Of a DNA stretch of 64,000 bases, positions 12,505 to 57,551 are shown piece after piece. Under the pieces are notes generated by a model. That model searched no databases and was not told the DNA's origin. It saw only the letters and a list, made by a program, of their open reading frames with translations. The stretch comes from a virus, in IMG/VR virus record IMGVR_UViG_3300042907_000878, positions 1 to 64,000 of that record. One strand, given 5' to 3'. The position numbers and the translations under genes were made by a program. The first letter of the stretch is position 1, and the number at the start of each line of letters is the position of its first letter.

Positions 12505-12515
12505 TAGGAGAAAAA

Positions 12516-12728
12516 ATGGCAGACGTTACACAAAAAATTATTTCGGGCAATGCCCAACCTACAGATGGTAGAATAGTTTTACAATCATATTTAGCAAATC
12601 CGTCCGGTATCAAGTTAAATCCAATTATAACAAGAGGATTAACAGTCGCCCAGATGGAAACTAGTTATACCGATAGATTCGACCATCCTCGCTACTATAC
12701 TTCAACACCTTCTGGATTAGCAGAATAA
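12516..12728 (+). CDS. Small conserved-looking virion protein
   Basis: This 70-residue protein has a clear ribosome site (taggag) eight bases before the start. The sequence is Gly/Pro/Thr-rich without cysteines or membrane segments. It is flanked by connector-type genes with spacings of 11 and 1 bases, so it probably belongs to the neck or head-completion set. I do not recognise a family. Confidence 0.5.
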   Translation: MADVTQKIISGNAQPTDGRIVLQSYLANPSGIKLNPIITRGLTVAQMETSYTDRFDHPRYYTSTPSGLAE

Positions 12729-12729
12729 C

Positions 12730-13233
12730 ATGGCACTATCTATTCCATCTGATATATTTAGCATTTACAATGAAGCCGTAGATAATATTTGGGCTAAATC
12801 TGTAACTTTTGTATATCCAGAGGTTAGACAAGAGTGTCCAAATTGCTCATTTAATGGATATAAATCCAATGGTGTTTATAAAAACGGTGGGCCATACCCT
12901 TTTGATAATGGATCTCTGTGTCCATATTGTAATGGAGATGGATACAAAATGATTGAGGCAACGGAAAGCACAACGGCCCGCATTTACTACAGTAGAAAAG
13001 ACTGGACTGATGTTGGGTTTCCCGTTAACATTTCTAATGCCAGCGCCCAAATAGTATTCAAAATGACAGATTTGCCAAAAGTACAAAAGGCTAAGTATAT
13101 TATTCCTGAATATTACACAGGTATAAATTCATATCAAAATCAAGCATTAGTTAGAGTTGGCGAATATTATCCACAAGGATTTACTCAAAATCCTACAAAG
13201 TATGTTATTACCTTTTGGGCTGCAAATGTCTAA
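12730..13233 (+). CDS. Zinc-finger neck/head-completion protein
   Basis: This 167-residue protein carries two CxxC knuckles: C36-P-N-C39 and C64-P-Y-C67, separated by a Gly-rich loop (GGPYPFDNGSL). They form a likely zinc site similar to the DnaJ-type CxxC-G motif. Proteins with this arrangement recur in phage neck regions ahead of the tail genes. The C-terminal half is beta-rich (ARIYYSRKDW, TKYVITFWAANV). Its final bases overlap the next start by eight bases. Head closure is a plausible role but is inferred from position. Confidence 0.6.
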   Translation: MALSIPSDIFSIYNEAVDNIWAKSVTFVYPEVRQECPNCSFNGYKSNGVYKNGGPYPFDNGSLCPYCNGDGYKMIEATESTTARIYYSRKDWTDVGFPVNISNASAQIVFKMTDLPKVQKAKYIIPEYYTGINSYQNQALVRVGEYYPQGFTQNPTKYVITFWAANV

Positions 13234-18179: not shown

Positions 18180-18263
18180 ATGGAAATTAGCGACATGCTG
18201 GATAGTATCCCCAATAAAGAGTGCTTACCCAGCATGTTTTGTTTTTATAAGGAAAACATATAA
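18180..18263 (+). CDS. Possible 27-codon leader ORF ahead of the tape measure gene
   Basis: An ATG at 18180, preceded by aactagg, opens a 27-residue frame (MEISDMLDSIPNKECLPSMF, then seven more residues). Its TAA overlaps the tape-measure ATG by one base (TAATG). It spans the whole hairpin described at 18193-18237, so its translation would open the hairpin and deliver ribosomes to the tape-measure start. It could also be a chance reading frame; it is too short to judge by composition. Confidence 0.3.
   Translation: MEISDMLDSIPNKECLPSMFCFYKENI
18193..18237 (+). promoter_or_regulatory. Hairpin with T-rich tail upstream of tape measure
   Basis: ACATGCTGG (18193-18201) pairs exactly with CCAGCATGT (18229-18237), enclosing a 27-base loop and followed by tttgttttt. 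The ribosome site of the tape-measure gene (aagga, 18249-18253) follows directly. It may be a weak terminator that reduces tape-measure mRNA relative to the tube gene, or a translational control hairpin. The loop is long for a classical intrinsic terminator. Confidence 0.5.
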
Positions 18264-21200: not shown

Positions 21201-24200
21201 CAACCTTTGCAACCATCAAAGGAATTGGTGGAAATTTAATAGATCTTGGATCTAACATAAAAGGTGTAAATCCTAAAGTATTAAGTGGGGTATTGACTGG
21301 ACTTTCGGCTGGATTAACAGGTTTTGCAACTGCACAAGCTGTTGCGGCTGCAAGGATTACATATCTTGGACAAACAGCAGAAGAGAGCGGCAAGAAGTTT
21401 AATTCTTTTATTGAAGCCTTGTCTAAAGGAGAAGGTACTACTCAAGGTCAATTGACTGATGCATTAACTAAGCAATTCCAAGCTGCATCTGACGCTCAGG
21501 CTAGAGGCTCAGGTGCTGCTAAGGCTGCTGGAGGAGTTGCATCTTTAGTTGCTGGAGGCGGGGCTATAGCTTTAGGAGCGGGCGCTTTTGCGCCTATAAT
21601 TGCTGCTGTAGCTGGCCCACTTACAGAAGAAATTTTATATTCAATCGGAGCATTTTCAGATTCAACAGGAAAAGCAAAAGTTCAAGCCGAAGCCTTATCT
21701 GCGGCTATGTTTTCTGCCACAACATCAAATCGCGATTTTCAAAAATTCTTTCAAAATATTGAAAAGCAAACTCCACAAGATGTCGCACAGCAAGCTCAGT
21801 CTTTAGCTCAAGCGTATAAAGAACAGCAAGCCCAAATCGCAAAACTGGGTGATTTGAGTAACGCGAGTGAAGCTGTAAAACAACAATTTCAAGCAGTTTC
21901 AGAATCAGCTAAACAGACTGCCGCAAACTTACAAACGATCATCGGAATCCAATTACAAAATGCAGTAAAACGATCTTCCGATCTTCTAAATAAAGGATTT
22001 ATTCCTGATATAGATAAATTATTGAAACCAATATTTGATTCTATACGTTCTGCTGCTGTAACAAGATATTCTGGACGAATAGAAACTGCTGGTGGAGAAC
22101 AAACTGCTCAAGGAATGAATCTTGTTGGTCAACGTGAAAACGAAATAGCAAGAGATCAGGAAAATGCCCGTAAGACTTTAAACCAAGCAACAAAACAGCA
22201 ATTAGAAATGATTGCCGTTTTAAATATTGAAAATAACATTAGAAAAGAGCTTATTGGATCTCTTCAAAAACAATCTGCGATTAGTGCAAGCATAGAAAGA
22301 CTGTCTTATGAATTAGACTTAGCTTCTAAGTCTGTATCCAATATAGATGCTGCCTTTTCAGGTTCTATAACTGGACTTAAATCTTCGTTTGATACCGATA
22401 TATTAAAATTAAAATCTCCAGATCAGGGTGCTTTAGATAAAGCCTTAGATCCTGTTAGAGCGGTTGGGCCAATTGGTAGAGACTTAGCTGATAATTTGGT
22501 TAATATAAATCAAGTTATGCCAACTCTTGAAGCGAAATTAATTGAGTTTTCCAATGCTACAGACACTGCTAGCGGGGCTTTATTTGATGTAAAAAAATTC
22601 GTAGAAGAGTCTTTTAATATTAAAGCCGACAGTATCGTCGGAAGAACTTTAGTTAAAATAATAGAAGGTACGACTACAGGAACTGGCGGTGAAAAAGCCG
22701 TTACTGCTGCTAAAACGTCTCTTAGACAAGAAGACGTTAGAAAGAAAATTGTTGAATCATTCCAAAAATTTGGCGAAGAATTCCGCACTCAAGCTGGTGG
22801 AATTTTAGATAATTTAGCTAGAGCAGAGCAAGAAGGTCGCGCTGTTGCAGAAAAAATCAATGAATCCAGACAAAAACAATTAGATCTACAACTACAAAGC
22901 GTTGATACATTCTCAAACTATATAGATGCCTTAGCTAAAGCCAGAGGCCGCGATTTAAGTTTGATTGAGAAGAACACTATTCGCACAATGAAGCAATATA
23001 CACTTGCTGGAAACATGGCGAATAATGTAGGAGCAATATCGACTGAACTTTCTGGTATATATAAAAAATTAAATGAAGGTGGATTAAATTTAGATGAACA
23101 AAAGAATCTTTCATTCTCTGCAACTAAATTAAGATCTGCACTTGAGGATCTTGCTGATCAATCTGGAAAAACTTCTGATATTCTTGCTGAAATTGAAAAG
23201 CAAAGAGCAAAGAGAGAGTCGGCTAGAGACTTTGGTAAAGAGTTTACTTTTGGCTCAAATGAACAAAGACAAAGTATAGCAAATTCTATTCAAGGACTCC
23301 AAAGAGTTTTGAATACTGGAAATATTAATGATGTTCCAGAAGAACTGAGATCTGGGGTTTCTTCATTACTAGACCGTTTCAAGGACGTTCCGGTATTTAA
23401 TGGAAGAACCGGAAGACAAGTTGAAAATAGACTTATTGCCAATCAATTTAGAGCAATGGGTGGCGGTGCATTTGCTAATATGATCGAGGCTGACACGTCA
23501 ACCCCTGAGCAGATATTAATTGGGGAACTGCAAAGAACATTCGCGATCCAAATACAAGCTCAACAAGCCCTGTCTCTGTTGGAGCAACAGAAGCAAGAAC
23601 TATTACAGGGTGCATTAAATGAATATACTACTGCAATTGGTAGTTATACAGCTAAATTAGAAAGTCTTGTGCAAGAGTTTCAAAGAAAAGCAGAAGAAAA
23701 AGCAATTCCAACCGTAACGCCGTCTGTGATTGCTAGCCCAAAAACTACATTACCCGCAGCTCCTTTTTCTGGTGGATCTATGGGTGTTTTAAATACATTA
23801 GTTGAAAATCCAAATCCAAATCTTCCACCCGATGCTAAAGCTAAAATTGATCTTGAAAATATTCAGGAAACAAATAGCGCAATTGAAAATTTTGGACAGG
23901 CTATTACTACTTCAGATCAAAAAATATATGAGTTTACCGCAAGATTAGAAAATCTTGTTAAGGTAATGGAAAACACTAAAAAGGAATGGCAACCAGCTAC
24001 AAAGCAAGAGATTGAAAATGCAAATAATCAACCCGGCACAGGTCAGAGTTTTGGAAGTTATGCTATTGGCGGGTTGGTATATCGCGCCGGTGGTGGTTCT
24101 ATATTTCAACCTAAAGGCACAGACACAGTTCCAGCAATGCTCACTCCGGGCGAGTTTGTTATCAAGAAAAGCTCAGTCGATAAGATTGGGGCTGATAATT

Positions 24201-27181
24201 TAAGCGCATTAAATAACGGATACGCCAGTGGGGGTCTAGTATCTTATTTAGCTGGTGGCGGTGGAGCTTCTGGAACTAACGCCTTTAACGACCTTGCTAA
24301 AAGAGTTACTAAGCTTGAAGAAGAAGTTAAAAAACTAGAAAAAGAAAATAAAATATTAAAAGGTAGTCTAGGCAAAATTTCCCCGATGAATCAAATTGCG
24401 GGTGGAATGCAAAACATGCAGCAGATGATGAGTGGAATGCAAAACCCTCAGCAGATGATGGGTGGAATGTCTTATGGTAATATGATGAACCAAAGATATT
24501 CTAGCGGCAGAGGTGCTACAAGAAGTCAATTAAGAGCTAGAGAAAATGCAGACAAGAGAAGTGCTGACGAGGCATTTGTAGATATAATGGGGCCACAATT
24601 TGAAGAAAATGCAGCTGATAGAGCTGAAAATGTCCCATCCGTTCTTAATATGGGTGGCACTAGAAGACAAGTTAGAGCTAGACAAGAGTCTTTAAAAAGA
24701 AGAGACGAGAAAGCCTTGGCAAACGAGCTAGGACTGGGCGAAGAAGCACAAGCCGAGCAAGCGGCAGCAGCAGAAAAGATGACCCTTATAGAATCCGCAG
24801 CAGGAGCAAGACGAACAGATAATACTGATGATATGAGTCAGGACGTACGCCTTAAGTTTTACACTCATTTTCTAGACACAAATCCTAATGGTCTGATGGC
24901 TTACATGATAAACGATAAGAATGCTAGGCATAGGGAACAGACAGGAAAATCAGCTCCCGGTGATTATTATACTCCAGACGCTGTGCCTACACGCGCAGGA
25001 GGTCCACTGAACAGAGCAAAAGGCGATGGATCGACAACACTCGGCAATACTAAAGAAGAGCAGGCATTTGTAGCAGGAGAAAGGGAGGCAGCAACCACTG
25101 CTACGGCAGCAACGGCAACAGCTACTCCACCGACTTCTCCTGTCCCGACCATGGACTCGCTTGCCCTAGCCGCCCTAGCCCGCCAAGAGGCAGCAACCAC
25201 TGCTACGGCAGCAACGGCAACAGCTACTCCACCTCCAGAAACAGCACCTACGCCTCCCTCCACGCTATCGAAGTTGATGGATCGGGCAGGGGATCTAGTA
25301 GATGTTCCACCACAGCAAGAAGCAGCAACTACTGCTACAGCAGCAGCAGCCACTTCACCTCCACCTAATGAATCTGAGCCTGAAGAAAGACCTCTGTCAT
25401 TTGCGGAACAATCGGCTAATGCAAATCAAAGAAGGCGTGAGGTTACGTCCATCCCAAAAATAGCTACATCTTACGCATCGCAAATATTGGGACCAAAACA
25501 ATCTACAGCAGAAGAAAAAGGAGGCAAAGCAGGATTAGACCATGTGAATTCGATGCTGGCGATAGCTTATGGCGTGCAAAAGCACAGAGCGCCGATTGGA
25601 CTACAGGGACTTCCTAGAGACACCAACTATAATACAAGTCTTGACCCCAACATGGGTGAAAGTGTTACCAATTGGGATCACAGAAAAGTTCCTTTGGGTG
25701 ATTTAGGTTTACCACCTGAAAAAGAAGCAGCAACTGCTGCTACAGCTCAAACTCCTGAACAAAAATTAAGAGAAGTTAACGCTAAAATAGATTTAATGAC
25801 TGGAACTAAAGAATCATTACCTACTACCAAAAATCCTAATGCTCCAATAGGTACGGTTTCAACTGGAAAGGGCGAAACTGGCCCAAGAGGGCTGGAGGGT
25901 GCTAATCAATTACAAGCATTAGATCAAGAACGCCAACAGTTAATGGCTAGCAGAGAATCAGCAAAAACTGGTCCACAGCCAGTATCTGAATTTAAAAAAA
26001 ATGCGCAAGCCGAAATTGATAAAAAATATCAAGAAGCATTAGCTAAAAATGAAGCAGAGTATTTGGCAATTGCCGATCCTTCACATGTGAATAGCCCAGA
26101 CGTTCAAAAAAATATACAAGAAATATCAGAAAAAAGAAGTCGAGTTAACGCACAAAAAGAAGCTATGGATTTATATTTTGGACCTGAAATGTCTTATGCT
26201 CCTGTAGATATTCCGGGCTTATCTGATAGAAAAATTCAATCTTTTGACAAGCCTAAAGAAAACCCTACAGTACAAGAAAATTTTAGAAAATCTAGAGAAC
26301 TTTTGTTTGACGACAAACAAGCCAAAGAAGATGCAAAAAATTCGCCTTTATCAAATATACTCGACACTGCTAGAACTGCAAGCAATGCTATTTTTGATCA
26401 AAACAGTATTTCTACTGTTGGGCATGAAGCAATTGCAACGATTCAAGATTCAGTACTAGCTGAAGAAGGAAGAACTTTTAAATCAAATATCAAGAAGAAT
26501 ATGAATCTACGACAACAATTACAAGGATATGCTAGTGGTGGATTAATCTCTTATCTTGCGAGCGGTGGATCTCCTAAAGGTTCAGACACAGTTCCTGCAA
26601 TGCTTACTCCCGGCGAATTTGTTATGAAGAAAGACTCCGTATCTAAATATGGTAAATCTTTTATGGAGAAAATGAACAAAGGGGGAGTTGTTCCGGGGTT
26701 TGCTGATGGCGGCTATGTCGGGTACTATGCTGAAGGTGGAAATGCTACAATACGTAATAGAAGAGCTAGAGGCATGTATGATGGTCAGATGGCGACAACT
26801 GCACAGGCTATGCAAAGAAGCGTTGGAATGCGTCAAAACATGATGTCAAATCAATTTGCTAACAATCCTGCGGTACAGCAAGGTGTAATGGCCAACCCAA
26901 TGCAAAAGCCAGCAACTGGGGGCGGGAACACTACAGGGGCAGTTGGTGGTGGAATGTCCGATGCAGCCCAACAGTTTTCACAGTTTGTTACTCAATTCTC
27001 AGACGCTGCCAAGATGATGACAGGAATGACTATGACTCATAAAGTTACAGTTGATGGACAATTAAATATAGGTGGAATAGACGGAAATGCCGTAGCTGAA
27101 CAAATTAAAATTGCTATAGGAAATTATGTTGGAAAAATAGTAGAAGATAAAATGAGCAAGAAAATGGGAGAAGCAACCTAA
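18263..27181 (+). CDS. Tail tape measure protein
   Basis: This 2972-residue protein is the length ruler of the tail and is ejected through the tube at infection. Residues about 95-330 carry a TP901-type tape-measure core (FEREVVKIAQATGKT, GFAADKVTGALKILA, TEGAIALLNQFG). Four copies of DTVPAMLTPGE(F/Y)V lie at about 474, 854, 1953 and 2773, each preceded by Gly-rich turns. This motif is common in tape measures. A hydrophobic stretch at about 1091-1118 (VASLVAGGGAIALGAGAF) could insert in a membrane. A coiled coil is near 2010-2038 (LEEEVKKLEKENKILKG), and Ala/Thr-rich repeats are near 2275-2360. No lysozyme or peptidase motif was found. Long helical stretches are Gln/Ala/Lys-rich. The stop overlaps the next start by one base. 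Confidence 0.93.
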   Translation: MASKFTITAELNLQTKNLNQVVNNLRQQFQGANLNINIKDLAQAQSQINKISSSAQNAQKSVGLLGSSFSQAFKKFTIVTAVTGTIVGFTRAVKNAVGDAIEFEREVVKIAQATGKTTSQLKGLTNEISSVSTSFGVSSKELILAARSLTQAGFAADKVTGALKILAQTELAATFDSIQDTTEGAIALLNQFGKQAQRTGSEVAFLEKSFSAINQVSKEFAVESSDLVTAVRTTGSAFESAGGSLDELLALFTSVRATTRESAESIATGFRTIFTRVQRVDTINNLKALGIELQDAEGKFIGPIEATKKLSAALNSIDPRDFRFNLVVEELGGFRQVSKVIPLIQQFAVTQKALNVAQGSSGSLAKDAQTAQQSLAVQIAKTREEFSRFIRDLTGTDSFQSTVRFLLDLANAFVRVADSIKPLVPLIAGFATLKAGTAVKGAFDQLAGPRRKAQGGKIHAFASGGLVPGQGNGDTVPAMLTPGEFVIKKSSVKSLGVENLARANKYADGGYVIRPQPGKFAGFFMQPEGVKDSSLVSQGQAVTNDATREGLLNQVNKNFKLYKSGKLSNKETNLISSQAINDYQPSTDTLKKAISGNIFSREDFKNYLSMGKGTPEDLIKQAVTDNKIDKNSAGLLKTGLSNEKAKYDKFVQSKINSSTPQGLNALSKGKGIKIAAEENDVPAFYIGEDDGPRSQAMRGAIAKKTKDGFSSILSGIGTDPAFKDIGLPPLDVKGDAIKKAIEPLFNSQDPKSARVTIEGYVLEGITAALTGITLGGSDTTWDFPQVASSAEKLGKLFGQTSRISQVESGDAKRSNTDKAKNSILTKKIASTLLKRPELIGNVKEFANGGFASGSDTVPAMLTPGEYVINKKSAQAIGYGSLNRMNKVGKFAEGGPVQMYQTGTPTGGASSPRVFQTTSTGVTTVTNQAAINAQAQQQSFIERLKESSDKLLLLGAVAGSVTSQLGGLDQATADIVSSFGATFATIKGIGGNLIDLGSNIKGVNPKVLSGVLTGLSAGLTGFATAQAVAAARITYLGQTAEESGKKFNSFIEALSKGEGTTQGQLTDALTKQFQAASDAQARGSGAAKAAGGVASLVAGGGAIALGAGAFAPIIAAVAGPLTEEILYSIGAFSDSTGKAKVQAEALSAAMFSATTSNRDFQKFFQNIEKQTPQDVAQQAQSLAQAYKEQQAQIAKLGDLSNASEAVKQQFQAVSESAKQTAANLQTIIGIQLQNAVKRSSDLLNKGFIPDIDKLLKPIFDSIRSAAVTRYSGRIETAGGEQTAQGMNLVGQRENEIARDQENARKTLNQATKQQLEMIAVLNIENNIRKELIGSLQKQSAISASIERLSYELDLASKSVSNIDAAFSGSITGLKSSFDTDILKLKSPDQGALDKALDPVRAVGPIGRDLADNLVNINQVMPTLEAKLIEFSNATDTASGALFDVKKFVEESFNIKADSIVGRTLVKIIEGTTTGTGGEKAVTAAKTSLRQEDVRKKIVESFQKFGEEFRTQAGGILDNLARAEQEGRAVAEKINESRQKQLDLQLQSVDTFSNYIDALAKARGRDLSLIEKNTIRTMKQYTLAGNMANNVGAISTELSGIYKKLNEGGLNLDEQKNLSFSATKLRSALEDLADQSGKTSDILAEIEKQRAKRESARDFGKEFTFGSNEQRQSIANSIQGLQRVLNTGNINDVPEELRSGVSSLLDRFKDVPVFNGRTGRQVENRLIANQFRAMGGGAFANMIEADTSTPEQILIGELQRTFAIQIQAQQALSLLEQQKQELLQGALNEYTTAIGSYTAKLESLVQEFQRKAEEKAIPTVTPSVIASPKTTLPAAPFSGGSMGVLNTLVENPNPNLPPDAKAKIDLENIQETNSAIENFGQAITTSDQKIYEFTARLENLVKVMENTKKEWQPATKQEIENANNQPGTGQSFGSYAIGGLVYRAGGGSIFQPKGTDTVPAMLTPGEFVIKKSSVDKIGADNLSALNNGYASGGLVSYLAGGGGASGTNAFNDLAKRVTKLEEEVKKLEKENKILKGSLGKISPMNQIAGGMQNMQQMMSGMQNPQQMMGGMSYGNMMNQRYSSGRGATRSQLRARENADKRSADEAFVDIMGPQFEENAADRAENVPSVLNMGGTRRQVRARQESLKRRDEKALANELGLGEEAQAEQAAAAEKMTLIESAAGARRTDNTDDMSQDVRLKFYTHFLDTNPNGLMAYMINDKNARHREQTGKSAPGDYYTPDAVPTRAGGPLNRAKGDGSTTLGNTKEEQAFVAGEREAATTATAATATATPPTSPVPTMDSLALAALARQEAATTATAATATATPPPETAPTPPSTLSKLMDRAGDLVDVPPQQEAATTATAAAATSPPPNESEPEERPLSFAEQSANANQRRREVTSIPKIATSYASQILGPKQSTAEEKGGKAGLDHVNSMLAIAYGVQKHRAPIGLQGLPRDTNYNTSLDPNMGESVTNWDHRKVPLGDLGLPPEKEAATAATAQTPEQKLREVNAKIDLMTGTKESLPTTKNPNAPIGTVSTGKGETGPRGLEGANQLQALDQERQQLMASRESAKTGPQPVSEFKKNAQAEIDKKYQEALAKNEAEYLAIADPSHVNSPDVQKNIQEISEKRSRVNAQKEAMDLYFGPEMSYAPVDIPGLSDRKIQSFDKPKENPTVQENFRKSRELLFDDKQAKEDAKNSPLSNILDTARTASNAIFDQNSISTVGHEAIATIQDSVLAEEGRTFKSNIKKNMNLRQQLQGYASGGLISYLASGGSPKGSDTVPAMLTPGEFVMKKDSVSKYGKSFMEKMNKGGVVPGFADGGYVGYYAEGGNATIRNRRARGMYDGQMATTAQAMQRSVGMRQNMMSNQFANNPAVQQGVMANPMQKPATGGGNTTGAVGGGMSDAAQQFSQFVTQFSDAAKMMTGMTMTHKVTVDGQLNIGGIDGNAVAEQIKIAIGNYVGKIVEDKMSKKMGEAT
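25085..25233 (+). repeat. 47-bp perfect direct repeat inside tape measure gene
   Basis: The 47 bases at 25085-25131 are repeated exactly at 25187-25233, offset by 102 bases (34 codons). A degenerate third copy begins at 25319 and a fourth, shorter one at 25723. Each encodes EAATTATAA-type Ala/Thr runs followed by Pro-rich linkers. Confidence 0.85.
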
Positions 27182-41041: not shown

Positions 41042-41793
41042 TCAGCACTCTCCTTTAAAATTTCTACCGGAATTGATTTGCTATTGTTTTGATAGTCATT
41101 CAATAGCTTAATCATATTAATTGCAGTCTTCTTACTCACACTCTCAAGTTTATCATAATTCTTTTCTCCAATATTAATATACTTGAGGACATCAATATTA
41201 AGCTCTCTACATTTATTAGTTAATAGACGAATTTGAGCATCGCTAATAGGATCTTCTTCTCTATAACTACCATCCGTAGGAGATGTTTTCATAACTTCTC
41301 GCACTGCCTTAGCAACATCTCTATTTCTGGTAAGCTCTTCAGCAGCAACACAGTTAAGCATTAGTAGCTTTCTTAAGCATCTGCCTTCTGCTCTTGTTGC
41401 AGCAGTTTCATCTGGATATCCTAAGAATAAGTCGTCAGTATTAACTGCCGATACACCAGCCATATCGCCAATTGTAACCAACTGTCCGCTATCAGTTTCT
41501 ATAGTTACTTCATATCGAACAACTGTTCTTGGAGTCGGGCTTTGCACGTTGATAACCTCTACGGGGCGACTAACAATAATCTCTCCCATTAAAAGTCGAG
41601 CAACTCTTCGCAGTCCATAACAGTTAGGATATTTTTTATCATTAATCTCAATTAGTTCGTTATCGGCGAATTTACTCATAACGAAATCATGCCACTCTGG
41701 AGATAGTGGGTCTGGGGTTTCTGGGTCTGTTACACCTTCAACAATATCTACAAGGCTCCGTTTGTCGAATACGCTATCGCTATCATCAATCAT
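41038..41793 (-). CDS. Putative single-strand annealing protein (Rad52/ERF-like)
   Basis: In this 251-residue protein, the N-terminal 170 residues include NCYGLRRVARLLMGEIIVS, a beta segment TVVRYEVTIETDSGQLVTIG, and DETAATRAEGRCLRKLL. The last resembles the conserved helix of phage Rad52/ERF-type annealing proteins. After a linker, residues about 180-235 (ISDAQIRLLTNKCRELNID) form a small helical domain often found at the end of such proteins. It would anneal complementary strands with the SSB and RecA encoded in the same module. No catalytic residues exist to confirm the family, so this is an inference from pattern and neighbours. Confidence 0.5.
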   Translation of the reverse strand: MIDDSDSVFDKRSLVDIVEGVTDPETPDPLSPEWHDFVMSKFADNELIEINDKKYPNCYGLRRVARLLMGEIIVSRPVEVINVQSPTPRTVVRYEVTIETDSGQLVTIGDMAGVSAVNTDDLFLGYPDETAATRAEGRCLRKLLMLNCVAAEELTRNRDVAKAVREVMKTSPTDGSYREEDPISDAQIRLLTNKCRELNIDVLKYINIGEKNYDKLESVSKKTAINMIKLLNDYQNNSKSIPVEILKESAE

Positions 41794-42562
41794 TTGATAA
41801 CTCCACTTCTATAAGTCTATGTGTTTTGTCGGGAAATTTGGATTCAATCTTTTGTAACTCAGATTTGATTAGCTGTAATAACTTATTGTTATTAAATGCA
41901 GAAACATGTTTGACTAGATACTTAACTCTGATAACGCAAAAACCTCTTGTTATCAATGCCCCACTTTTTATAGCATCATATTTGATTGCCCTTTGTAAAC
42001 TCTTTTCACCAAAAACTGGAATAAAGTGTTGTGGCCCATCAATTTCAATAGCAGTTAACAGATCTGGCAAGTACAAATCTATTTCATACTTTTCGCCGGG
42101 AATCAATCCGACCTTATGCATTATAACATTGTAACCAGCTTTTGTCAAGTGTTCATAGAGATATTTTTCAGCTTTTGATCCCTCGGTACTCGCCTTCCTG
42201 AGAGCCTCTCCTGCGAGCTGTTGTTTGTGACTTTTTTCTTCTGGGGTTTGCGAGTTCCACCTTTCTTGGGCGTTTTTCTTAAATTCTTCCACAGCATCTT
42301 CAGACATTAAAGCCCACTGCTTCGCCCTGCCAGCCCCAATTTTAGCTTTCTCCTCGTCTGTTCTAGTTTTGCCAAGCGTAGGAGGCTTTAACCTACCGCT
42401 TTCCACTGCCGCTTTTGCTGCATCTTCTTTGTTTCTTAATTCTTTGCCAGCTTTTTTTAAAGATCTAGCAATCTTATTAGGATAAGTACTAAATATCTTG
42501 GCGATATCTCTTATACTTTTCCCTTCGTCATACATTTTAATGATTTCATTTATTTCAAGCAT
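41786..42562 (-). CDS. EDxHD/Vsr-like homing endonuclease with HTH and NUMOD-type motif
   Basis: This 258-residue protein starts with an HTH segment (residues 3-36: EIIKMYDEGKSIRDIAKIFS) and a NUMOD3-like DNA-binding motif at 62-84 (TLGKTRTDEEKAKIGAGRA). The C-terminal nuclease domain has E132, E160-I-D162, E173-I-D-G-P-Q-H179 and D196. This spacing fits the Vsr-related EDxHD family, whose known members include the recA-associated homing enzyme I-Bth0305I. It overlaps both neighbours by 8-13 bases and is probably a free-standing selfish gene. No interrupted host gene is visible around it. Confidence 0.75.
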   Translation of the reverse strand: MLEINEIIKMYDEGKSIRDIAKIFSTYPNKIARSLKKAGKELRNKEDAAKAAVESGRLKPPTLGKTRTDEEKAKIGAGRAKQWALMSEDAVEEFKKNAQERWNSQTPEEKSHKQQLAGEALRKASTEGSKAEKYLYEHLTKAGYNVIMHKVGLIPGEKYEIDLYLPDLLTAIEIDGPQHFIPVFGEKSLQRAIKYDAIKSGALITRGFCVIRVKYLVKHVSAFNNNKLLQLIKSELQKIESKFPDKTHRLIEVELSND

Positions 42563-48871: not shown

Positions 48872-49210
48872 TCAATTTTCCAATCGTTCGGTAGTTTTAC
48901 ATCCTATGGACTTAAATGTTTTAACTCTAAAAACAATTTTTTGTCTTTTTTGATCCCCAGAATTCCACTTATGCTGGCGAGCCTCTGCTTCAATCGCTAA
49001 AAGTTCGCCCTTTTTAAAGTGTTTTGCAATTGTAGTAGCACCAGTATCCCAAGCTTCAAAATCTAAATAATCCACTCTGCGATGTTTTTCGCCTTCTTTG
49101 TCTTTTCTGTAATCCTCTACAGCTAAGGAAAAGTTGACAACATACGTATTATTAGTTTCTTTAAGTTCAGGATCAGCAACTAATTTACCAACAAAGCAAC
49201 AAATATTCAT
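48872..49210 (-). CDS. ssb: Single-stranded DNA-binding protein
   Basis: This 112-residue OB-fold protein starts MNICCFVGKLVADPELKETN, with the core FSLAVEDYRK, YLDFEAWDTGATTIAKHFKK and GELLAIEAEARQHKWNSGDQ, as in bacterial SSB. The acidic C-terminal tail (DDDIPF type) used to recruit partners is missing; the protein ends KTTERLEN, so it may not recruit host partners. It lies directly downstream of the polymerase genes. A role in coating template strands during replication and recombination is well supported. Confidence 0.88.
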   Translation of the reverse strand: MNICCFVGKLVADPELKETNNTYVVNFSLAVEDYRKDKEGEKHRRVDYLDFEAWDTGATTIAKHFKKGELLAIEAEARQHKWNSGDQKRQKIVFRVKTFKSIGCKTTERLEN

Positions 49211-49223
49211 CTAGTTCTCCCAA

Positions 49224-50816
49224 TTATATCTGAGTCACAATTTTAACAATAAAAGAAAGATCATTTTCCTTTTGTTTGATCTCTCCATATAATAGTACCG
49301 TATTGCCTTCAAAAAGCAACTTCTTGTATCGAGAAAATTCTTCAGAAAAAACCGTAATAGAATCAAGTTCACCTGAGCTATCTTCGGCAATTACAAATGC
49401 CATAAATTCGCCCTCATGCTGACCTCTTTTAAGTTTATATTCTCTAACTTGATTTATCTTCACTGCTAATTTGGCATCTTGCATTTTTTTAACTTCACCA
49501 TTAGCAATTTCTTTGCATGTGACATTTACATCATCCAAAGCAAGGTTGTCTGACTGTGAACAAGTCAAAGAACATCCCATAAGCTTCTGTTCAATATCTG
49601 CAATCCACACATAATCATCCTCAAGTGAATAAGGTGGATCTTGCAAAGCTTGATAGATATCTAACACAGAAGTAATCCTGCGAGAATTAATCTTATCGTT
49701 GTTGTTAATCATGAGATTAACTAAATCAATAAATGGAGAATTAGACATTCTGGAGCTTTTCCAATGAGATATGATCCACCCTTGCTCTTTGATAGTCAGC
49801 TTATTCCAAATATCAAATTCAAAGACCATTCTATTCCTGTTTAGCTTATTGTTCTTTCCCGTTAAGCCACCAACACTAATAATAGAAATAAATGCATTCT
49901 TCTTGATCTCATTACCAATAAGAAATAAGCACTCCAACCAGTTAAACTCTTTAATTGATTTACCAGTGATATCCTCAGCTTCTTGCACAACTCTAGCTAG
50001 TGTTTCTTGCTCACCCTCTCCAACATTCTTGACATCGCTATATCCAAAGTATATGACGTTCTTAGCTCTATCCATTGTAAAGCGACGATAGAAGAAGTCA
50101 AGTCTAGGAGGAAGAACTTCAATTCCTTGAAGTTTAGCGTCCATAATCAACTCCTTAATCTCTCGCTGCTTATCTGGTTTACTAGATGCATTATTTAGAT
50201 ATACAGTATAGAACTTAATTGGATCGTGTGTTTTACAATAAGCTGAAGCAAATGAATTGATAGCATATGCAACAGCGTGAGATTTATTAAATGAATAGCG
50301 AGCAGATGCCGCAATCCATTCAAAAATCTTAGCTGCTGACACGTCATCTACTAATCCTTTAGTCTTAGACCCATTGATAAACTTCTCTTCAACTTCTTTC
50401 ATAAGTGCCGCATCTTTTTTACCCATAGCTTTTCTTAGTGAGTCAGCTTCTTCGGGTGTAAATCCAGCAATTTCTGTGGCAATACGCATAGCTTGCTCTT
50501 GATAAACGATAATTCCATAAGTTTTACCCAGCACTGTTTCCAATGCTGGGTGTAAATATTTGGTTTCGTCAATCTTAGCTTTGCGATCTGTGTAGTGCTT
50601 GGTCATAGATTTGCCGTCTAATTCGGCCTCTAACGTACCGGGGCGAATAATGGATACCAAGTCAGCTAACTCGTCAATAGAGCGAGGCTGCGCCCTTTTT
50701 GCCCAACTGGAACCCAATCTGGACTCCAATTGAAAAACTCCCTTGGTTCTTCCGCTGCAAATCAGATCCCAAGTCGCTTCGTCGTCAAAATTTTTGATAT
50801 CTTCAATATGAACCAT
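49224..50816 (-). CDS. dnaE: DNA polymerase III alpha subunit, C-terminal half
   Basis: This 530-residue protein begins where the N-terminal half ends. Residues 1-34 (MVHIEDIKNFDDEATWDLIC then GVFQLES) continue the DnaE palm/fingers region, which in intact DnaE follows the KFD-LG motif by only a few dozen residues. TYGIIVYQEQAMRIATEIAG (99-118) with EEADSLRKAMGKK and FNKSHAVAYAI (176-186) are fingers motifs that bind dNTP and template. Residues about 445-530 (AKLAVKINQVREYKLKRGQH) form the C-terminal OB-fold. The tau-binding region of host DnaE is shortened. It cannot polymerise alone since all three catalytic Asp are on the other polypeptide. Confidence 0.9.
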   Translation of the reverse strand: MVHIEDIKNFDDEATWDLICSGRTKGVFQLESRLGSSWAKRAQPRSIDELADLVSIIRPGTLEAELDGKSMTKHYTDRKAKIDETKYLHPALETVLGKTYGIIVYQEQAMRIATEIAGFTPEEADSLRKAMGKKDAALMKEVEEKFINGSKTKGLVDDVSAAKIFEWIAASARYSFNKSHAVAYAINSFASAYCKTHDPIKFYTVYLNNASSKPDKQREIKELIMDAKLQGIEVLPPRLDFFYRRFTMDRAKNVIYFGYSDVKNVGEGEQETLARVVQEAEDITGKSIKEFNWLECLFLIGNEIKKNAFISIISVGGLTGKNNKLNRNRMVFEFDIWNKLTIKEQGWIISHWKSSRMSNSPFIDLVNLMINNNDKINSRRITSVLDIYQALQDPPYSLEDDYVWIADIEQKLMGCSLTCSQSDNLALDDVNVTCKEIANGEVKKMQDAKLAVKINQVREYKLKRGQHEGEFMAFVIAEDSSGELDSITVFSEEFSRYKKLLFEGNTVLLYGEIKQKENDLSFIVKIVTQI

Positions 50817-50825
50817 TAGTTCCTC

Positions 50826-51533
50826 TTATATAGTAATATCCATAGGAGTATCTGCAAATGACTTCTCAAAATTAGTCTTAGAATTTAACTTACGCTGATA
50901 CTTCATAAATCTGACAAAGATATTTGCAGTGTCAACAACATCATAAATGGCATTGTGGGCATTTGCTTTACTCTCTTCGGGAAACCCAAAGAACTCTCTA
51001 AGATATCCCATGTTTAATTTCTTAACTGAGTCGTTATCTTCAAACCATCCAAACAATACATCCATCATGTCTACTTTATAAATTTGATGGACTAACTTTT
51101 GCTTTCCGGTTTTTTCTTCAGATGGTCCATACATTTGACAATACCTATTTAAGATTGGCATATCGTAGTTATTGATATTAAATCCTACAGGAATTGGGGC
51201 AAAGTATGGAGACCCCTTCATATTAAACTTAGTTACAAAGTTAGAGAACTGCTGCCAAGCAACTTTAGGCCCAACAGCTTTTTCCAATTGTTCGCGGGTT
51301 TTACGTGTTACATCAAGAGCTTCTTGTTCAACAGGATCAAATCCCGCTTTAATAGCTTTTTCATCATCAAACTCAGGTCGCACTTCAATGTCAAACACTC
51401 CACCCGGCTGAAGTGTTAACTTCTTACCATGCAATACGATTGCTGATATTTGAGTTAGCTGACACTTATTAGGGTTTTTACCTGTAGTCTCAAAATCGAA
51501 CACTAAAAAATCACGATTGCTGTTTAGTGACAT
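50826..51533 (-). CDS. DnaQ-like DEDDh 3'-5' exonuclease
   Basis: In this 235-residue protein, Exo I is FLVFDFETTGKNP with D13 and E15, Exo II is NINNYDMPIL with D124, and Exo III is NAHNAIYDVVDTA with H193 and D198. The DEDDh set is complete, as in the epsilon proofreading subunit. No obvious clamp-binding motif is seen. The gene lies between the two halves of the polymerase gene, and its product should supply proofreading. Its start overlaps the upstream small gene by 23 bases. Confidence 0.9.
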   Translation of the reverse strand: MSLNSNRDFLVFDFETTGKNPNKCQLTQISAIVLHGKKLTLQPGGVFDIEVRPEFDDEKAIKAGFDPVEQEALDVTRKTREQLEKAVGPKVAWQQFSNFVTKFNMKGSPYFAPIPVGFNINNYDMPILNRYCQMYGPSEEKTGKQKLVHQIYKVDMMDVLFGWFEDNDSVKKLNMGYLREFFGFPEESKANAHNAIYDVVDTANIFVRFMKYQRKLNSKTNFEKSFADTPMDITI

Positions 51534-51744
51534 AGGTTTTTCTCAATTCTAAAAATTTATCAATAGCTTCATTTAGGTCGTAAAATATTTGTGAATACTT
51601 ATTATTATGGACTTGGTATATTCCATTCTTCTTCTCTCTGTACCAAGGAACATGATTTCTTAGATCGGATAAGCTCAAATCTTTAAAGTCAATGTCATTA
51701 CCATCCCTGATAACAGTTGCGTAGTCTAGAAATTTTTCCTTCAT
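51511..51744 (-). CDS. Small hypothetical protein between polymerase halves
   Basis: This 77-residue charged protein (MKEKFLDYATVIRDGNDIDF, then NHVPWYREKKNGIYQVHNNK) has no known motif. It begins one base after the stop of the polymerase N-terminal half and overlaps the exonuclease start. Tight packing suggests co-translation. It could be a small bridging partner of the split enzyme, which is speculation. Confidence 0.45.
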   Translation of the reverse strand: MKEKFLDYATVIRDGNDIDFKDLSLSDLRNHVPWYREKKNGIYQVHNNKYSQIFYDLNEAIDKFLELRKTYVTKQQS

Positions 51745-51745
51745 G

Positions 51746-53248
51746 TTAATCCTTCTCTGTAATCTGCATAATTTTATCTAGTAAGTTAATCCCAAGCACA
51801 TCAAATTTAGTCAAACCAACCTTATCCAAGTCATGCATTTCAAATGCGACTAATCTATGACCATTCTTATCTGTGATAAGAGGTGCGTCATTGATTAGAT
51901 CTTCATTAGAAATAATCACTCCTGCCGGATGTTTTCCTTGAGATTTATAAGTTCCTTCTATTCTTATAGCAAGAGAGAAAAGATCTGACAACTCACCAGA
52001 CAAATTGCCCTCCTTATCAATTCTACACCACTTTTCAAGTTTCTTTGGATCATTTTCAAGAGTCCATCGAATAACTGATTTGATATCCATTTCTTCCAAT
52101 TCATCTGAGATGCTAGCTTCTTGTGGTAAACTCTCAGTGATCTCATTTAACTCACTAAAAGATAAGTCCCCATAAACTCTAGCAACATCCTTGACTGCTG
52201 ATCGACCTTGCAGACGCCCGAATGTAATCATCTGGTAAACTCTTTCATTGCCATACTTATTCTTGATATAGTCAATAATTTCATCGCGGTGAACAGATGG
52301 AACATCCATATCAATATCGGGTAAAGAGATATTATCTTTAGTAAATCGGCCAGCGTTTAAAAATCTAGAGAATAGTAAATCGTATTTCAAGGGATCAATA
52401 TCAATAATCCCAAGTAAATATGACACTAAACATCCACCAGCACTTCCACGTCCCGGTCCCGGTAGCCACTCATTCTTTCTTACGAAGTTAATAATGTCTT
52501 GCACAATTAAAAAGTATCCAGACAGTTCAAATCCATGAATAACAGACAACTCGTACTTAATACGATCAGTATATTCCTTCTTCTTATCATCTTTTAAATG
52601 CATAAGTTTTGCTCGCCAACCATTTCTACATAACTGTGTTAGATAATCATTCTCAGACATATCTGCACAATCTACGCGAGGTAGTTTAGGCTTAGAAAGA
52701 ATGCTATACTGTTGTAATTCAGAGTATAGTTGTTTAGTTCCAAAGTATTGCTTTTCGCTAGGTATAATCCTATGAACTGGATGAAAGAAGTAATGATCAG
52801 ACTCGAAGAACTTTTTATATTCTCCCATATCCACATCTTTAGCTCTCTTGAGTGTAGTTTTAAAGTTAAGACATAATACCATCCTATGAAGAATTGCGTC
52901 ATTTTGTTCAGCATAATAAACCGGCATAATTGCTAGTTGATCTTCTGTATAAAATTGCAAGTCTTCTTTGTCGTATTCTATCTTTTCTTTAGATGCTAAC
53001 TTAATTAAAGCTCTATATCCTTTTAGAGATTTAGCAATATAATACCCATTATCGGCTTGCATTCCAAGAATGGGTACGATCCCAGCTTTATTCATGGCAT
53101 TGAAGAAATCAACAACACCACTAATAGTTTCAATATCTGCAATTAAGCAATGTGTATAGCCTAATTCTTTACATTTTTTAGCGGCTTCATCGGGCTTGAT
53201 GAAACCTTTCAATAATGAATAGTGTGTTGTTATTACTGGCAATATCAT
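51746..53248 (-). CDS. dnaE: DNA polymerase III alpha subunit, N-terminal half
   Basis: This 500-residue protein holds the PHP and palm domains. Residues 262-290 (WLPGPGRGSAGGCLVSYLLG) hold the nucleotide-binding GRGS loop. LPDIDMD places catalytic D311 and D313, and LTKFDVLG places D483. The chain ends 17 residues later with DKIMQITEKD. The PHP domain (1-90) has lost its metal-binding HxH: TTHYSLLKG replaces the usual HSxYSLLDG, and IADIE replaces ADHG. It therefore cannot proofread by itself. The upstream nuclease gene overlaps by four bases. Confidence 0.93.
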   Translation of the reverse strand: MILPVITTHYSLLKGFIKPDEAAKKCKELGYTHCLIADIETISGVVDFFNAMNKAGIVPILGMQADNGYYIAKSLKGYRALIKLASKEKIEYDKEDLQFYTEDQLAIMPVYYAEQNDAILHRMVLCLNFKTTLKRAKDVDMGEYKKFFESDHYFFHPVHRIIPSEKQYFGTKQLYSELQQYSILSKPKLPRVDCADMSENDYLTQLCRNGWRAKLMHLKDDKKKEYTDRIKYELSVIHGFELSGYFLIVQDIINFVRKNEWLPGPGRGSAGGCLVSYLLGIIDIDPLKYDLLFSRFLNAGRFTKDNISLPDIDMDVPSVHRDEIIDYIKNKYGNERVYQMITFGRLQGRSAVKDVARVYGDLSFSELNEITESLPQEASISDELEEMDIKSVIRWTLENDPKKLEKWCRIDKEGNLSGELSDLFSLAIRIEGTYKSQGKHPAGVIISNEDLINDAPLITDKNGHRLVAFEMHDLDKVGLTKFDVLGINLLDKIMQITEKD

Positions 53249-54276
53249 TCAACCGCTCCCGGATCTTTATATTTCCCAATTGTGAATCCCGGTTTAGAAC
53301 AATTCTTGACCGTTTCTGTCATTCCAATAGTTTTTAGCTGGTCTTCAATATGATGACACATTGTACTATCTGTTCCGGGCCAATTAGTTTTATAATAATG
53401 ACAAAGTTTTTGACATTTAAAACTGGCTCTTTCTCTAGAAATTGGTTGTGGCGTTTGATTTGATACAATTTCTTTAAATGTACTTTTTAAATACTTTATA
53501 AAGTCGGCATCATCATCTTTATCAAACGCTAGCGAAAATGGGCCACCATCTCTACAAAAGAAAATAGTCATAATGGAATGTCTATGCTTAGGATACATTT
53601 TGCCAATAGCATAGTGGTACAGCAATAGTTGGGTGTCCTTCATAAGTTTATCATAATCTTTCTTTTCTCCGGTAGCCCAATCAAGCCTTTGCCCAGTCTT
53701 CCAATCGATTACTTCTATTGTACCATCTTCCATCTCAGTTACAAGATCAATTGTTCCTTTGATCGCAAGATTTCCAGAAATTTTTTCCCCATTTGGCCCA
53801 TCAAACTCAAACTTTGCCCAATCTTCTAAGATAGGAATGTCAAAGTGGGGTTCCGTATCAATAACTTTACGGTTTCGTGGATCAAACTGACCATTGTTAT
53901 ATCCTAAAGTATCCCAAACCATTTTATAACAGAATTCATAATCTTTTTGATTAAATTCATTATGTGGTGAATTTTTTTTGTAGAAATCAAAACTTCTACC
54001 AAGTATATAATTTACAAAATCATCTGTGTGTAATTGATCATTGGTGAAAGAAAAATCACCCAAGGGATCTTGAGTGACTTTCATTGTACTTCTTTTATTG
54101 AACTGCGTCCGTTTTTTACAGATTGCTAATGTTTCAAGTACTGCGTGAGTAATTGTTCCCAAATCAGCCTTTTTCCCGGAAGGAGAATAGTGGCCTAAAA
54201 CATAAGTCATAAAATATTGCAACTGACAATATTTCCAGTTGTTCAATGAGGAACTTCGAAAATATGTAGTTATCAT
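53245..54276 (-). CDS. PD-(D/E)XK exonuclease, Cas4/RecB-like
   Basis: This 343-residue protein has motif order as in Cas4/AddB nucleases: H44 (GTITHAVLE), D177 (TIDLVTEM), E188-V-I-D191-W-K193 and Q216 (TQLLLYHYA). Four Cys are placed like an iron-sulfur clasp: C17 near the N-terminus (KYCQLQYF), and C288, C292 and C307 near the C-terminus, with spacing x3 and x14 rather than the usual x2 and x5. It overlaps the polymerase start by four bases, so a role in end resection or processing during replication and recombination is likely. Confidence 0.85.
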   Translation of the reverse strand: MITTYFRSSSLNNWKYCQLQYFMTYVLGHYSPSGKKADLGTITHAVLETLAICKKRTQFNKRSTMKVTQDPLGDFSFTNDQLHTDDFVNYILGRSFDFYKKNSPHNEFNQKDYEFCYKMVWDTLGYNNGQFDPRNRKVIDTEPHFDIPILEDWAKFEFDGPNGEKISGNLAIKGTIDLVTEMEDGTIEVIDWKTGQRLDWATGEKKDYDKLMKDTQLLLYHYAIGKMYPKHRHSIMTIFFCRDGGPFSLAFDKDDDADFIKYLKSTFKEIVSNQTPQPISRERASFKCQKLCHYYKTNWPGTDSTMCHHIEDQLKTIGMTETVKNCSKPGFTIGKYKDPGAVE

Positions 54277-55097
54277 CGGATTTTTGTGAATCTTTCTTTT
54301 TTAACTGCCGGTTCAAGATCTTGCGGAGTTCCAATTACAATTTCTTTTGGTATCCAGTTCCATTCGTATAAAATCTCAAATAATTGTTTGCAAGACTCAT
54401 GAATGGTAAGATTTGCATTGTCAATCACAGCATCGTATTCATTAAATGAGTCTAAATCGACTTCACTTGCGTGACTATCGTGCGTTTCGCCGCGAGTTAG
54501 CCTAATGACTTTTCCTCCAGCAGCTTGAATTGCCTTGACTTCGTTTTCAAATCTTGCATCTGAAATTACCGCAAGTGCCGATTCTTCATTTTTGATATCT
54601 GAAATTGTTCTATTTGTCCAGACATCGGAATATATTTTTCGACAAACATCTGTTCCAAAATATTGAAGTAACTCTCTTCCACTCATATAGCCTGTTTTAC
54701 CCTTGACTTTTGTAGGCATATCTTCCCATTTATATTGTGTTGGAGCATTCTTTTCTTCTTCAGTACCATATACAGACTCTTTTGGAACATTAAATAGCCC
54801 AACAAGAATATCTTTTAATGGTGTTGCAAAAGCGTAGTGCTTAACAAAAGGCCAAACATTGTCTATTGCCCACATTGCAAATGGTACGTCTGTACGAGTA
54901 ACATCAATAATCCCTTTTCCTCTTTTTTCTTCTCCTGTTTCATCTCGCACCAAAGTGTCAATAATTAAGTCGCCTTCATCTATAATTTCAAAACCATCAA
55001 TAATACCAAATGATTTCAAAAAGTATCCATGTAGAAAATTACACATGGTGTTTTTACCGGCTTGCTTTTTACCAGAGAATGCTAAAATCTTACTCAT
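54273..55097 (-). CDS. Deoxynucleoside monophosphate kinase
   Basis: This 274-residue enzyme of the T4 gp1 type phosphorylates dNMPs (and in T4 also a modified dCMP). The P-loop is SGKKQAGKNTMCNFLHG (residues 8-24). Further typical segments are HYAFATPLKDILVGLFNV, GRELLQYFGTDVCRKI and ALAVISDARFENEVKAIQAA. The length is close to the T4 enzyme (about 240). It overlaps the exonuclease gene by four bases. It supplies dNTP precursors. Confidence 0.9.
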   Translation of the reverse strand: MSKILAFSGKKQAGKNTMCNFLHGYFLKSFGIIDGFEIIDEGDLIIDTLVRDETGEEKRGKGIIDVTRTDVPFAMWAIDNVWPFVKHYAFATPLKDILVGLFNVPKESVYGTEEEKNAPTQYKWEDMPTKVKGKTGYMSGRELLQYFGTDVCRKIYSDVWTNRTISDIKNEESALAVISDARFENEVKAIQAAGGKVIRLTRGETHDSHASEVDLDSFNEYDAVIDNANLTIHESCKQLFEILYEWNWIPKEIVIGTPQDLEPAVKKERFTKIR

Positions 55098-56170
55098 TAA
55101 AATAATCCTTTGATTTGTGGTTTAAGTTCGTTATTTATATCTTCAATAGACATTTCTCCAATGTCTTTTTTAGATATCTTAGGTGTAAAGTAATTAAATC
55201 TTCTGTCGCCCTTTTTTATAATACCCTCTGCTGCCTTTTGTCCCGCCTCGTCATTGTCAGTTAATATAACAATATTCATTACTCCAAGCTCTTCAAGATT
55301 GATTAATTGGTCTTCGCTAAGGTCAGATCCAAATATACCTGCACAATTTTTAATGCCCGATTCGTATAATCTCCAAACATCACCTTGACCTTCAACCAAT
55401 ACAATCGTTGACGACTTTTGAATATAAGGTTTAGTAACCCATAATCCATACAAAAAGAAAGATTTTTTAAAACCTTTGCTATTGAGCCATTTTGGTTTGG
55501 TCTGTTCGTCTGTTGCTCTCCCAACACATCCAATATATTGAGAGGTTTCATTATAGACAGGAACTACTGCTCGATTGAACATTTGCCTATTAGAATTATA
55601 ACACTCTCCAACATCAAAAGCTATTAAAGTTTCTGGTAAAAATCCTCTATTTATATAGTATTTTGAAGGAATGTCAAGAGTTGATACTACTTGCTCTCTA
55701 GATATGTTTAATTCTATCTTTTCAGATTTACGAGTTAATATTTCATTAATCTTATTAATCTCATATATACTTTCGCTAATCTTTTCTTCTGGTATATCTA
55801 TGATTTTTTTATTTAAAAATGATAGTGAAAAATTAATAGCTTGGTAGAAATTAACTTCTTTACCTTCTCTTTGTGAAAGAACTCCTCTCACAAAGCCTAT
55901 CATATTTTTACCATAATCTTTTTCACATGAATGCGTCCAGCAAACCCAATTTCCTTTAGTTTTAGAGCCATCAGTAAATATACACGACCCCTCACAGTTA
56001 TCTCCTCCATGCACTGGGCATGGGAATGCTAGTCTATTGGGAAATTCTATGTATTCAATTTTTAAAGCGTTAAGTAGAGATGGTGCTTTTTCTGATAATT
56101 CGTTACATATCGAATAAATCTTCTCCCGACTCACTTTCTCGAATTTCGAAGGAGTTGTCTTGACTTGCAT
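55097..56170 (-). CDS. dnaG: DnaG-type primase
   Basis: I choose the ATG at 56170 (357 residues) because GGAG stands six bases ahead of it; earlier in-frame ATGs at 56182 and 56194 lack this, and any start here overlaps the helicase gene by about 68 bases. An N-terminal zinc domain (FPCPVHGGDNCEGSCIF, WVCWTHSCEKDYGKN) binds template, and the Toprim core has ILVEGQGDVWRLYE with its Glu and VILTDNDEAGQKAAEG with the paired Asp. The usual C-terminal helicase-binding domain is short. It makes RNA primers with the DnaB helicase encoded upstream. Confidence 0.9.
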   Translation of the reverse strand: MQVKTTPSKFEKVSREKIYSICNELSEKAPSLLNALKIEYIEFPNRLAFPCPVHGGDNCEGSCIFTDGSKTKGNWVCWTHSCEKDYGKNMIGFVRGVLSQREGKEVNFYQAINFSLSFLNKKIIDIPEEKISESIYEINKINEILTRKSEKIELNISREQVVSTLDIPSKYYINRGFLPETLIAFDVGECYNSNRQMFNRAVVPVYNETSQYIGCVGRATDEQTKPKWLNSKGFKKSFFLYGLWVTKPYIQKSSTIVLVEGQGDVWRLYESGIKNCAGIFGSDLSEDQLINLEELGVMNIVILTDNDEAGQKAAEGIIKKGDRRFNYFTPKISKKDIGEMSIEDINNELKPQIKGLF

Positions 56171-57551
56171 TTGCCGCTCCATTCTTAATTTCATCTCTAG
56201 TATACCATTCAGTAAGTTTAGCAATTGCACCATTCATTTTAACATTGATATAGTTACCATATTCAAGTCCAGATCCATGCCTAGCTTTAATAATAACAAG
56301 TTTACGATTTCCATTCTCATCACCATCATCTGCCACTTCTTCATCACTTTTCATTTGAAACTTAGCAACAGTGGATGCAAGCCACTGAAGTCTATCAGAT
56401 TGTGCGATTTCCTCTTCTCGATTAAGCTGCACAAAAGATAAACATGGTAAGTCGTATTTAATACAGAAATCATTCATCTTTGTAATCTGAAAGCCTAAAG
56501 CCTGATATTCTTGCATAGCAGCTGTTAGCCCAGCTGAACTCATCAACTTGAAATAATCGTATATGATTAAGCAGTCTTTAGTTCTACCGTTCTCATCAAA
56601 TCCAACATATTGATGGACCCATCTTTTAATAATGTTAAGGATATTATCAAATGGTTGGCCAGCAATTGATATATAGTGATACGGTATCTTTTCAATCAGC
56701 TTAGCTGCGGCAATCACCTTTTCTTTAGAGTTAAAACTCTTAGCAAAAACCCCTTTTGCAATGTCATTGATCTTAATTCCGCTAATGTTTGCTAGCATAC
56801 GGTTTCTTTGGTCTCCAAGATCCATTTCTGTATCTAAATACAGCACTGGAATATTATAAACCTCTGAAACATATTTTGCAACATTAGTAGAGATAACACT
56901 TTTACCAACCCCAGTTCTAGCACCTATTAGAGTGACCGACTTTCTTCTAAGACCACCTCCGATAGCTTCGTCAAATCTAGGAAAACCCGTAGGAATGCCA
57001 AGATAATCAGAGGGATTATTAATAAGATACTCAACATACTCATCAATGTCTTCGCCAAGAAGAACAGTCTTATTATTTTGCTCTTTATATGCAAGTGAAG
57101 TGATCTCCATGATTGGGGTTTCAACCATGCCAATAATATCTTCTACACTTTCATCGCCTGTAACTTTAGCCATAGACTTGTCACAGATAGATAATGTTTT
57201 CTTAATATCTCTAGCTAATTTAAGCTTAGTTAATTTAGCTGCAAATTTAGGAATGTTATCTTTGTTTATGGGGAAATTAAAAAGCGACCGGATGAAACTC
57301 ATCTCGGTCGATTTATTAATTAATTCATATACACCCAACTTTTGAGCTGTTGAAAATATAGAGAGATATTCAATATTCTGATTATTGTTGATAACATCCT
57401 GCAAGCATGTAAATATAACCTGATTTAATTCGTGGCTAAAGTACTCTGCTTGCAAGAAATCGAGTTCAACATAAACCTCTAGCCCGAACTGGCAGATGCC
57501 AGCGAGGACGGCACGTTCAACTGGAAGGTTCTGCAATTCGGACTGGCTCAT
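56103..57551 (-). CDS. dnaB: DnaB-type replicative helicase
   Basis: This 482-residue protein has an N-terminal helical domain (1-150), then a RecA-type motor domain. GIPTGFPRFDEAIGGGLRRK (185-204) precedes Walker A (GARTGVGKS, 210-218). Walker B is CLIIYDYFKLM (327-337). FVQLNRE (373-379) is the sensor motif of DnaB. The length matches typical DnaB (about 450-480). It unwinds the fork and partners the primase whose start lies inside its 3' end. Confidence 0.95.
   Translation of the reverse strand: MSQSELQNLPVERAVLAGICQFGLEVYVELDFLQAEYFSHELNQVIFTCLQDVINNNQNIEYLSIFSTAQKLGVYELINKSTEMSFIRSLFNFPINKDNIPKFAAKLTKLKLARDIKKTLSICDKSMAKVTGDESVEDIIGMVETPIMEITSLAYKEQNNKTVLLGEDIDEYVEYLINNPSDYLGIPTGFPRFDEAIGGGLRRKSVTLIGARTGVGKSVISTNVAKYVSEVYNIPVLYLDTEMDLGDQRNRMLANISGIKINDIAKGVFAKSFNSKEKVIAAAKLIEKIPYHYISIAGQPFDNILNIIKRWVHQYVGFDENGRTKDCLIIYDYFKLMSSAGLTAAMQEYQALGFQITKMNDFCIKYDLPCLSFVQLNREEEIAQSDRLQWLASTVAKFQMKSDEEVADDGDENGNRKLVIIKARHGSGLEYGNYINVKMNGAIAKLTEWYTRDEIKNGAANASQDNSFEIRESESGEDLFDM

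Follow-up and report, generated by a model that had tools for sequence, protein, structure and literature searches.

Two-gene DNA polymerases

In the Pol III core of Escherichia coli the polymerase subunit alpha is a single chain and the gene for epsilon lies elsewhere. The cyanobacterial DnaE is encoded in two parts, where the break falls further on than the one considered here, inside the region of the C-terminal half, and is healed by a split intein. Among phages, the T4-like Aeromonas phages 25 and 44RR have gene 43, for a family B polymerase, split into 43A and 43B, and the 43A and 43B proteins of phage 25 co-purify and are active as a polymerase (PMC2988022). Split DNA polymerases with a small ORF of unknown function between the parts have also been described in OM43 phages (PMC10580990).

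How, then, does a locus in which the two parts of a DnaE flank an exonuclease gene fit among these systems? The window, which is a 64,000-nucleotide stretch of virus record IMGVR_UViG_3300042907_000878, contains such a locus, and it very probably encodes a replicative family C (DnaE type) polymerase that consists of two chains and belongs to a large group of uncultivated phages.

The locus and its replication operon

The four ORFs of the locus are all on the minus strand, at the positions assigned to them in the initial annotation. The first, polN (51746-53248; 500 aa), encodes the N-terminal chain of DnaE with the PHP domain, palm and thumb. This is followed by p77 (51511-51744; 77 aa), by exo (50826-51533; 235 aa), whose product is a DEDDh exonuclease and candidate proofreader assigned to phrog_192, DNA polymerase exonuclease subunit, and by polC (49224-50816; 530 aa), which encodes the C-terminal chain with the fingers, a helical region and the OB fold. 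On this strand the order is polN, p77, exo, polC and then the gene for a single-strand DNA-binding protein (SSB; 48872-49210). Directly upstream of polN, and also on the minus strand, is a gene for a PD-(D/E)XK (Cas4/RecB-like) nuclease (53245-54276), the stop of which shares 4 nt with the polN start, and beyond it are genes for a deoxynucleoside monophosphate (dNMP) kinase (54273-55097), a DnaG-type primase with a Toprim domain (55097-56233) and a DnaB-like replicative helicase (56103-57551). Read from right to left, the replication operon therefore runs from the helicase through primase, dNMP kinase, nuclease, polN, p77, exo, polC and SSB to a glycosyltransferase.

Each of polN, exo and polC is an ORF with its own start and stop, and polC has its own ATG together with a Shine-Dalgarno-like AGAGGA at 50821-50826. 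In most of the 102 distinct pairs of split genes described below, polC starts either inside exo or within 20 nt of its end, an overlapping or abutting arrangement that suggests coupled translation.

The dNMP kinase is mostly only about 60-68% identical in relatives (L004-L018) whose polN is 96-99% identical to that of the window, and this much greater divergence suggests local gene exchange. Elsewhere in the window there is an HNH endonuclease gene (41786-42562, minus strand) and an ORF of 2972 aa (18263-27181, plus strand), with the direction of the genes changing near 40.5 kb.

The two chains and the position of the break

The polN product matches the Pfam PHP and DNA_pol3_alpha families (PF07733, E=3.5e-74) and contains a GRGS motif (G266, R267, G268, S269), a PDID motif with D311 and D313, and the third aspartate, D483, only 17 residues before its end. 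The GRGS motif and the three aspartates, the latter being on this chain as initially placed, are invariant in all 102 distinct split pairs. The polC product begins about 27 residues ahead of the FQLES motif, matches DNA_pol3_finger (PF17657, E=3.7e-45) and ends with an OB fold, the region of which aligns to E. coli residues 949-1055, with OB folds also matched by Foldseek; the fingers-to-OB-fold portion is thus where it was first placed. The fingers motif residues are likewise intact in 102 of 102 pairs, and the region that follows the OB fold in bacterial alpha is absent here. Modelled alone, both chains give structures of moderate confidence (pLDDT 74 for polN and 82 for polC) whose best PDB matches are bacterial Pol III alpha. 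The final 16 residues of the polN model are disordered, as expected for a linker that has been cut.

The PHP domain (polN residues 1-150) is shortened in the subclade of the window and lacks two His residues that many relatives keep, one preceding the conserved THY and one following D38. For this reason the PHP metal site of the subclade, as judged from its sequence, is probably dead. In the other main clade (L030, L031, L040, L050) the N-terminus of polC carries a conserved extension of about 30 residues with a CGC motif, which is possibly metal-binding.

On alignment to the NCBIfam DnaE model, which has 1146 positions, polN accounts for 202-568 and polC for 584-1061, with the PHP part of polN matching as a separate stretch and about 15 linker positions between the two chains unmatched. 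As polN and polC jointly span the model, almost nothing is missing at the break. When profiles are compared with PDB chains the break is located just before E. coli residue 584, and between residues 626 and 641 of the Thermus enzyme, where the catalytic palm meets the fingers.

Conservation of the split

Relatives were collected by scanning viral metagenome contigs, from which 224 loci were fetched with identities ranging from 100% down to about 40-50%. The initial annotation had proposed that the same break be sought in related phages, and the polN-exo-polC order is present in about 180 of these 224 loci, with most of the others ending at a contig edge. Removal of duplicates leaves 102 distinct sequence pairs with this order, and the recurrence of the layout is far beyond chance. 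All three genes, polN, exo and polC, are under purifying selection, as dN/dS is about 0.03-0.12 when the window is compared with near relatives at unsaturated dS. In a scan of cellular genomes for relatives the hits were all bacterial DnaE, at about 31% along the full length.

That the two genes might be a polymerase gene broken by decay or by assembly error, with the phage relying on the polymerase of its host, is the least likely of the explanations considered. Several named phages do have DnaE interrupted at various points, but here 102 distinct pairs, drawn from many assemblies, share the one break, no catalytic motif has been lost and both halves are strongly constrained, and decay and misassembly were rejected on this basis. 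Being old and stable as well as subject to selection, the break most likely marks an authentic enzyme in two pieces, as opposed to a damaged gene, so that the original view of two working halves with retained motifs appears sound. Three loci (L008 at 12012-12735, L062 and L149) seemed to offer a second, unsplit DnaE, and this candidate was also set aside: in each, the start of a phage glycosyltransferase ORF runs into a bacterial-type DnaE at the contig end, most likely as a chimeric contig.

It is also very improbable that the two chains have diverged in function and no longer act as one polymerase. The genes are separable, and exo is closer to polC than polN is, both of which would suit such a divergence; against this, the palm and fingers motifs, which are jointly catalytic, are invariant in all 102 pairs, and a search of ten virus records turned up no further DNA polymerase, whether of family A, B or C. 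These records, of 91-210 kb and perhaps incomplete, each have one PF07733 (palm) and one PF17657 (fingers) match, with no PolA or PolB and no bacterial-type beta clamp detected within them.

The exonuclease and the gap beside it

The exo product matches the Pfam family RNase_T, and its active site (D13, E15, D124, H193, D198) fits the DEDDh class and is present in 148-150 of 150 homologues, in agreement with the first reading of the gene. The small protein encoded next to it has fared differently. The 77-residue protein, which the initial annotation had included in a proposed complex prediction with the halves, has no family match in Pfam and is kept beside exo only in the clade of the window and its unsplit sister, being absent or replaced elsewhere. 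The other main clade has an unrelated ORF of about 58 aa in its place and some twelve loci have no room for one, and p77 was accordingly rejected as a conserved subunit. The small ORF between polN and exo would instead be cargo at an open site. In other loci the gap holds varied contents (L005:7773-8570, L020:7712-8542, L153:3343-3891 and L249:8065-10614), which include a uracil-DNA glycosylase and two types of ORF recognised by eye: an HNH-like one that no Pfam family matches, and one of 849 aa with RCC1-like repeats.

Unsplit relatives and the history of the break

Two close relatives, L152 and L158, lack the palm-fingers break and are nested within the split clade. In L152, of which L233 is a longer version, the operon is the same, p77 and exo are upstream and the polymerase is one ORF of 1144 aa. 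In trees of the N half, the C half and both halves, the split loci of the clade group with L152 and L158, far from other phage DnaE, and the two unbroken loci join the clade of the window with bootstrap values of 100, 99 and 91. A topology that keeps all split forms together is rejected at an AU p of 0.047, which is borderline. Either the ancestor was split and the L152/L158 lineage has re-fused, or there have been two splits of the same layout. It is quite possible, if a little short of probable, that the ancestor had an obligate two-chain enzyme with the proofreader gene between its halves, that this arrangement was clade-wide and was re-fused in L152/L158, and that split, re-fused and intein-fractured forms now coexist. 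The unbroken loci imply that the split is not required for function, and a nested unsplit lineage makes gene fission versus re-fusion testable.

Probable joining of the two chains

Covalent joining, whether through trans-splicing of the proteins or through excision of p77 and exo in an RNA intron, has some precedent within the group, since split inteins cut the same gene at other sites in relatives, mostly with endonuclease genes between the parts. These sites are GRG/S in the palm (L158, L173, L175, L203) and FNK/SH in the fingers (L054:8712-11659, L117:3530-6443), where the slash marks the cut. Endonuclease genes also occur near the palm-fingers break itself in some relatives, for instance an endonuclease VII ORF in L080. 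At that break, however, there is neither an IntN nor an IntC sequence, and no room for an intein, since only 17 residues follow D483 in polN and only about 27 precede FQLES in polC. The polN and polC of the window match no intein model, whereas L054 and L173, as positive controls, score above the cut-off of TIGR01445, and a split intein at this position was consequently rejected. A search of the window region and eight relatives against Rfam gave no intron, every ORF has a start and a stop of its own, and exo, which lies between, is itself conserved. Covalent joining is therefore improbable, with a small chance left for a joining element of a kind outside the Rfam and intein models.

Several of these interrupted relatives have details of their own. 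The GRG/S parts of L158 (1843-3306 and 4209-6563) are separated by a 282-aa ORF with a weak match to TnsA-like endonucleases, and the ORF between the FNK/SH parts is LAGLIDADG-like in L054 and contains NUMOD3 in L117. In L193 (1021-4014) and L213 the N half is interrupted by a LAGLIDADG ORF just ahead of the PDID motif, and the second part bears an unrelated 89-aa N-terminal extension with no recognisable intein.

The best explanation, as far as sequence can indicate, would be noncovalent reassembly. The first chain would contribute the PHP domain, palm, thumb and three catalytic aspartates and the second chain everything from the fingers through the OB fold; the two would fold separately and come together where palm meets fingers, at a linker tolerant of cutting, and the exonuclease would bind the PHP domain by analogy with epsilon in E. 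coli. If this is correct, the locus represents, as far as has been found, the first replicative polymerase of family C to be made as two chains across a whole clade without an intein. The cut separates the part that holds the catalytic metals from the part that grips the incoming nucleotide, and the halves could thus provide a natural tool for studying assembly of the DnaE core. These replication genes would be missed or misnamed by gene finders and polymerase surveys that assume a single-chain DnaE.

Comparison with known systems

The initial annotation had suggested that the arrangement may be undescribed, and this holds in part. Nothing on this clade, on a family C split in phages or on a conserved split of this type with an exonuclease gene inside was found in the literature, in a search that mostly lay outside subscription papers, but split phage polymerases as such are known and the same break has a counterpart. 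In Rossellomorea phage phiT1 (gp20/gp18; PV767480) DnaE is likewise in two genes and cut at the same palm-fingers linker, which implies that this linker can be cut independently. The phiT1 proteins, though, belong to a distant lineage in the trees and have a 49-aa ORF and not an exonuclease between them; the case is known from annotation, with no study of it found in the literature. DnaE also lies in several ORFs in Bacillus phage KLEB27-3, Alicyclobacillus phages MMB025 and KKP_3916, Lactobacillus phage Satyr and Microbacterium phage Kate, where the breaks are mostly located elsewhere, contain homing endonucleases or ORFs of unknown function and are apparently sporadic. One of the KKP_3916 breaks does fall in the palm-fingers linker, and a hypothetical ORF separates the parts there.

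The 43A/43B genes resemble the locus in that a phage replicative polymerase is in two genes with another element between, and the window shares with them halves that are encoded apart and that carry no signal for covalent rejoining. They differ in family, fold and break, the window being family C and 43A/43B family B, and in what is inserted, which is a Seg endonuclease gene or untranslated sequence between 43A and 43B and a proofreading exonuclease gene in the window. The cyanobacterial split DnaE (Ssp/Npu DnaE; NCBIfam PRK09532, PRK07373) is likewise a family C enzyme in two genes. In PRK09532, a model of 876 aa, the break in the window falls between positions 577 and 618 and the match continues into polC; the N part does not end in an IntN, nor does the C part begin with an IntC. 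With the E. coli alpha-epsilon core the locus shares a DnaE polymerase with a separate DEDDh proofreading subunit. The palm motifs with the third aspartate, the fingers domain and the C-terminal OB fold place the pair among DnaE-type family C polymerases, while the single polypeptide that is usual for alpha, and not strictly defining, is replaced by two separate ORFs with p77 and exo between. What these genes would most likely encode, on the evidence of their sequences, is a conserved and working two-chain DnaE, a genes-in-pieces variant of a known enzyme and not a new kind of enzyme.
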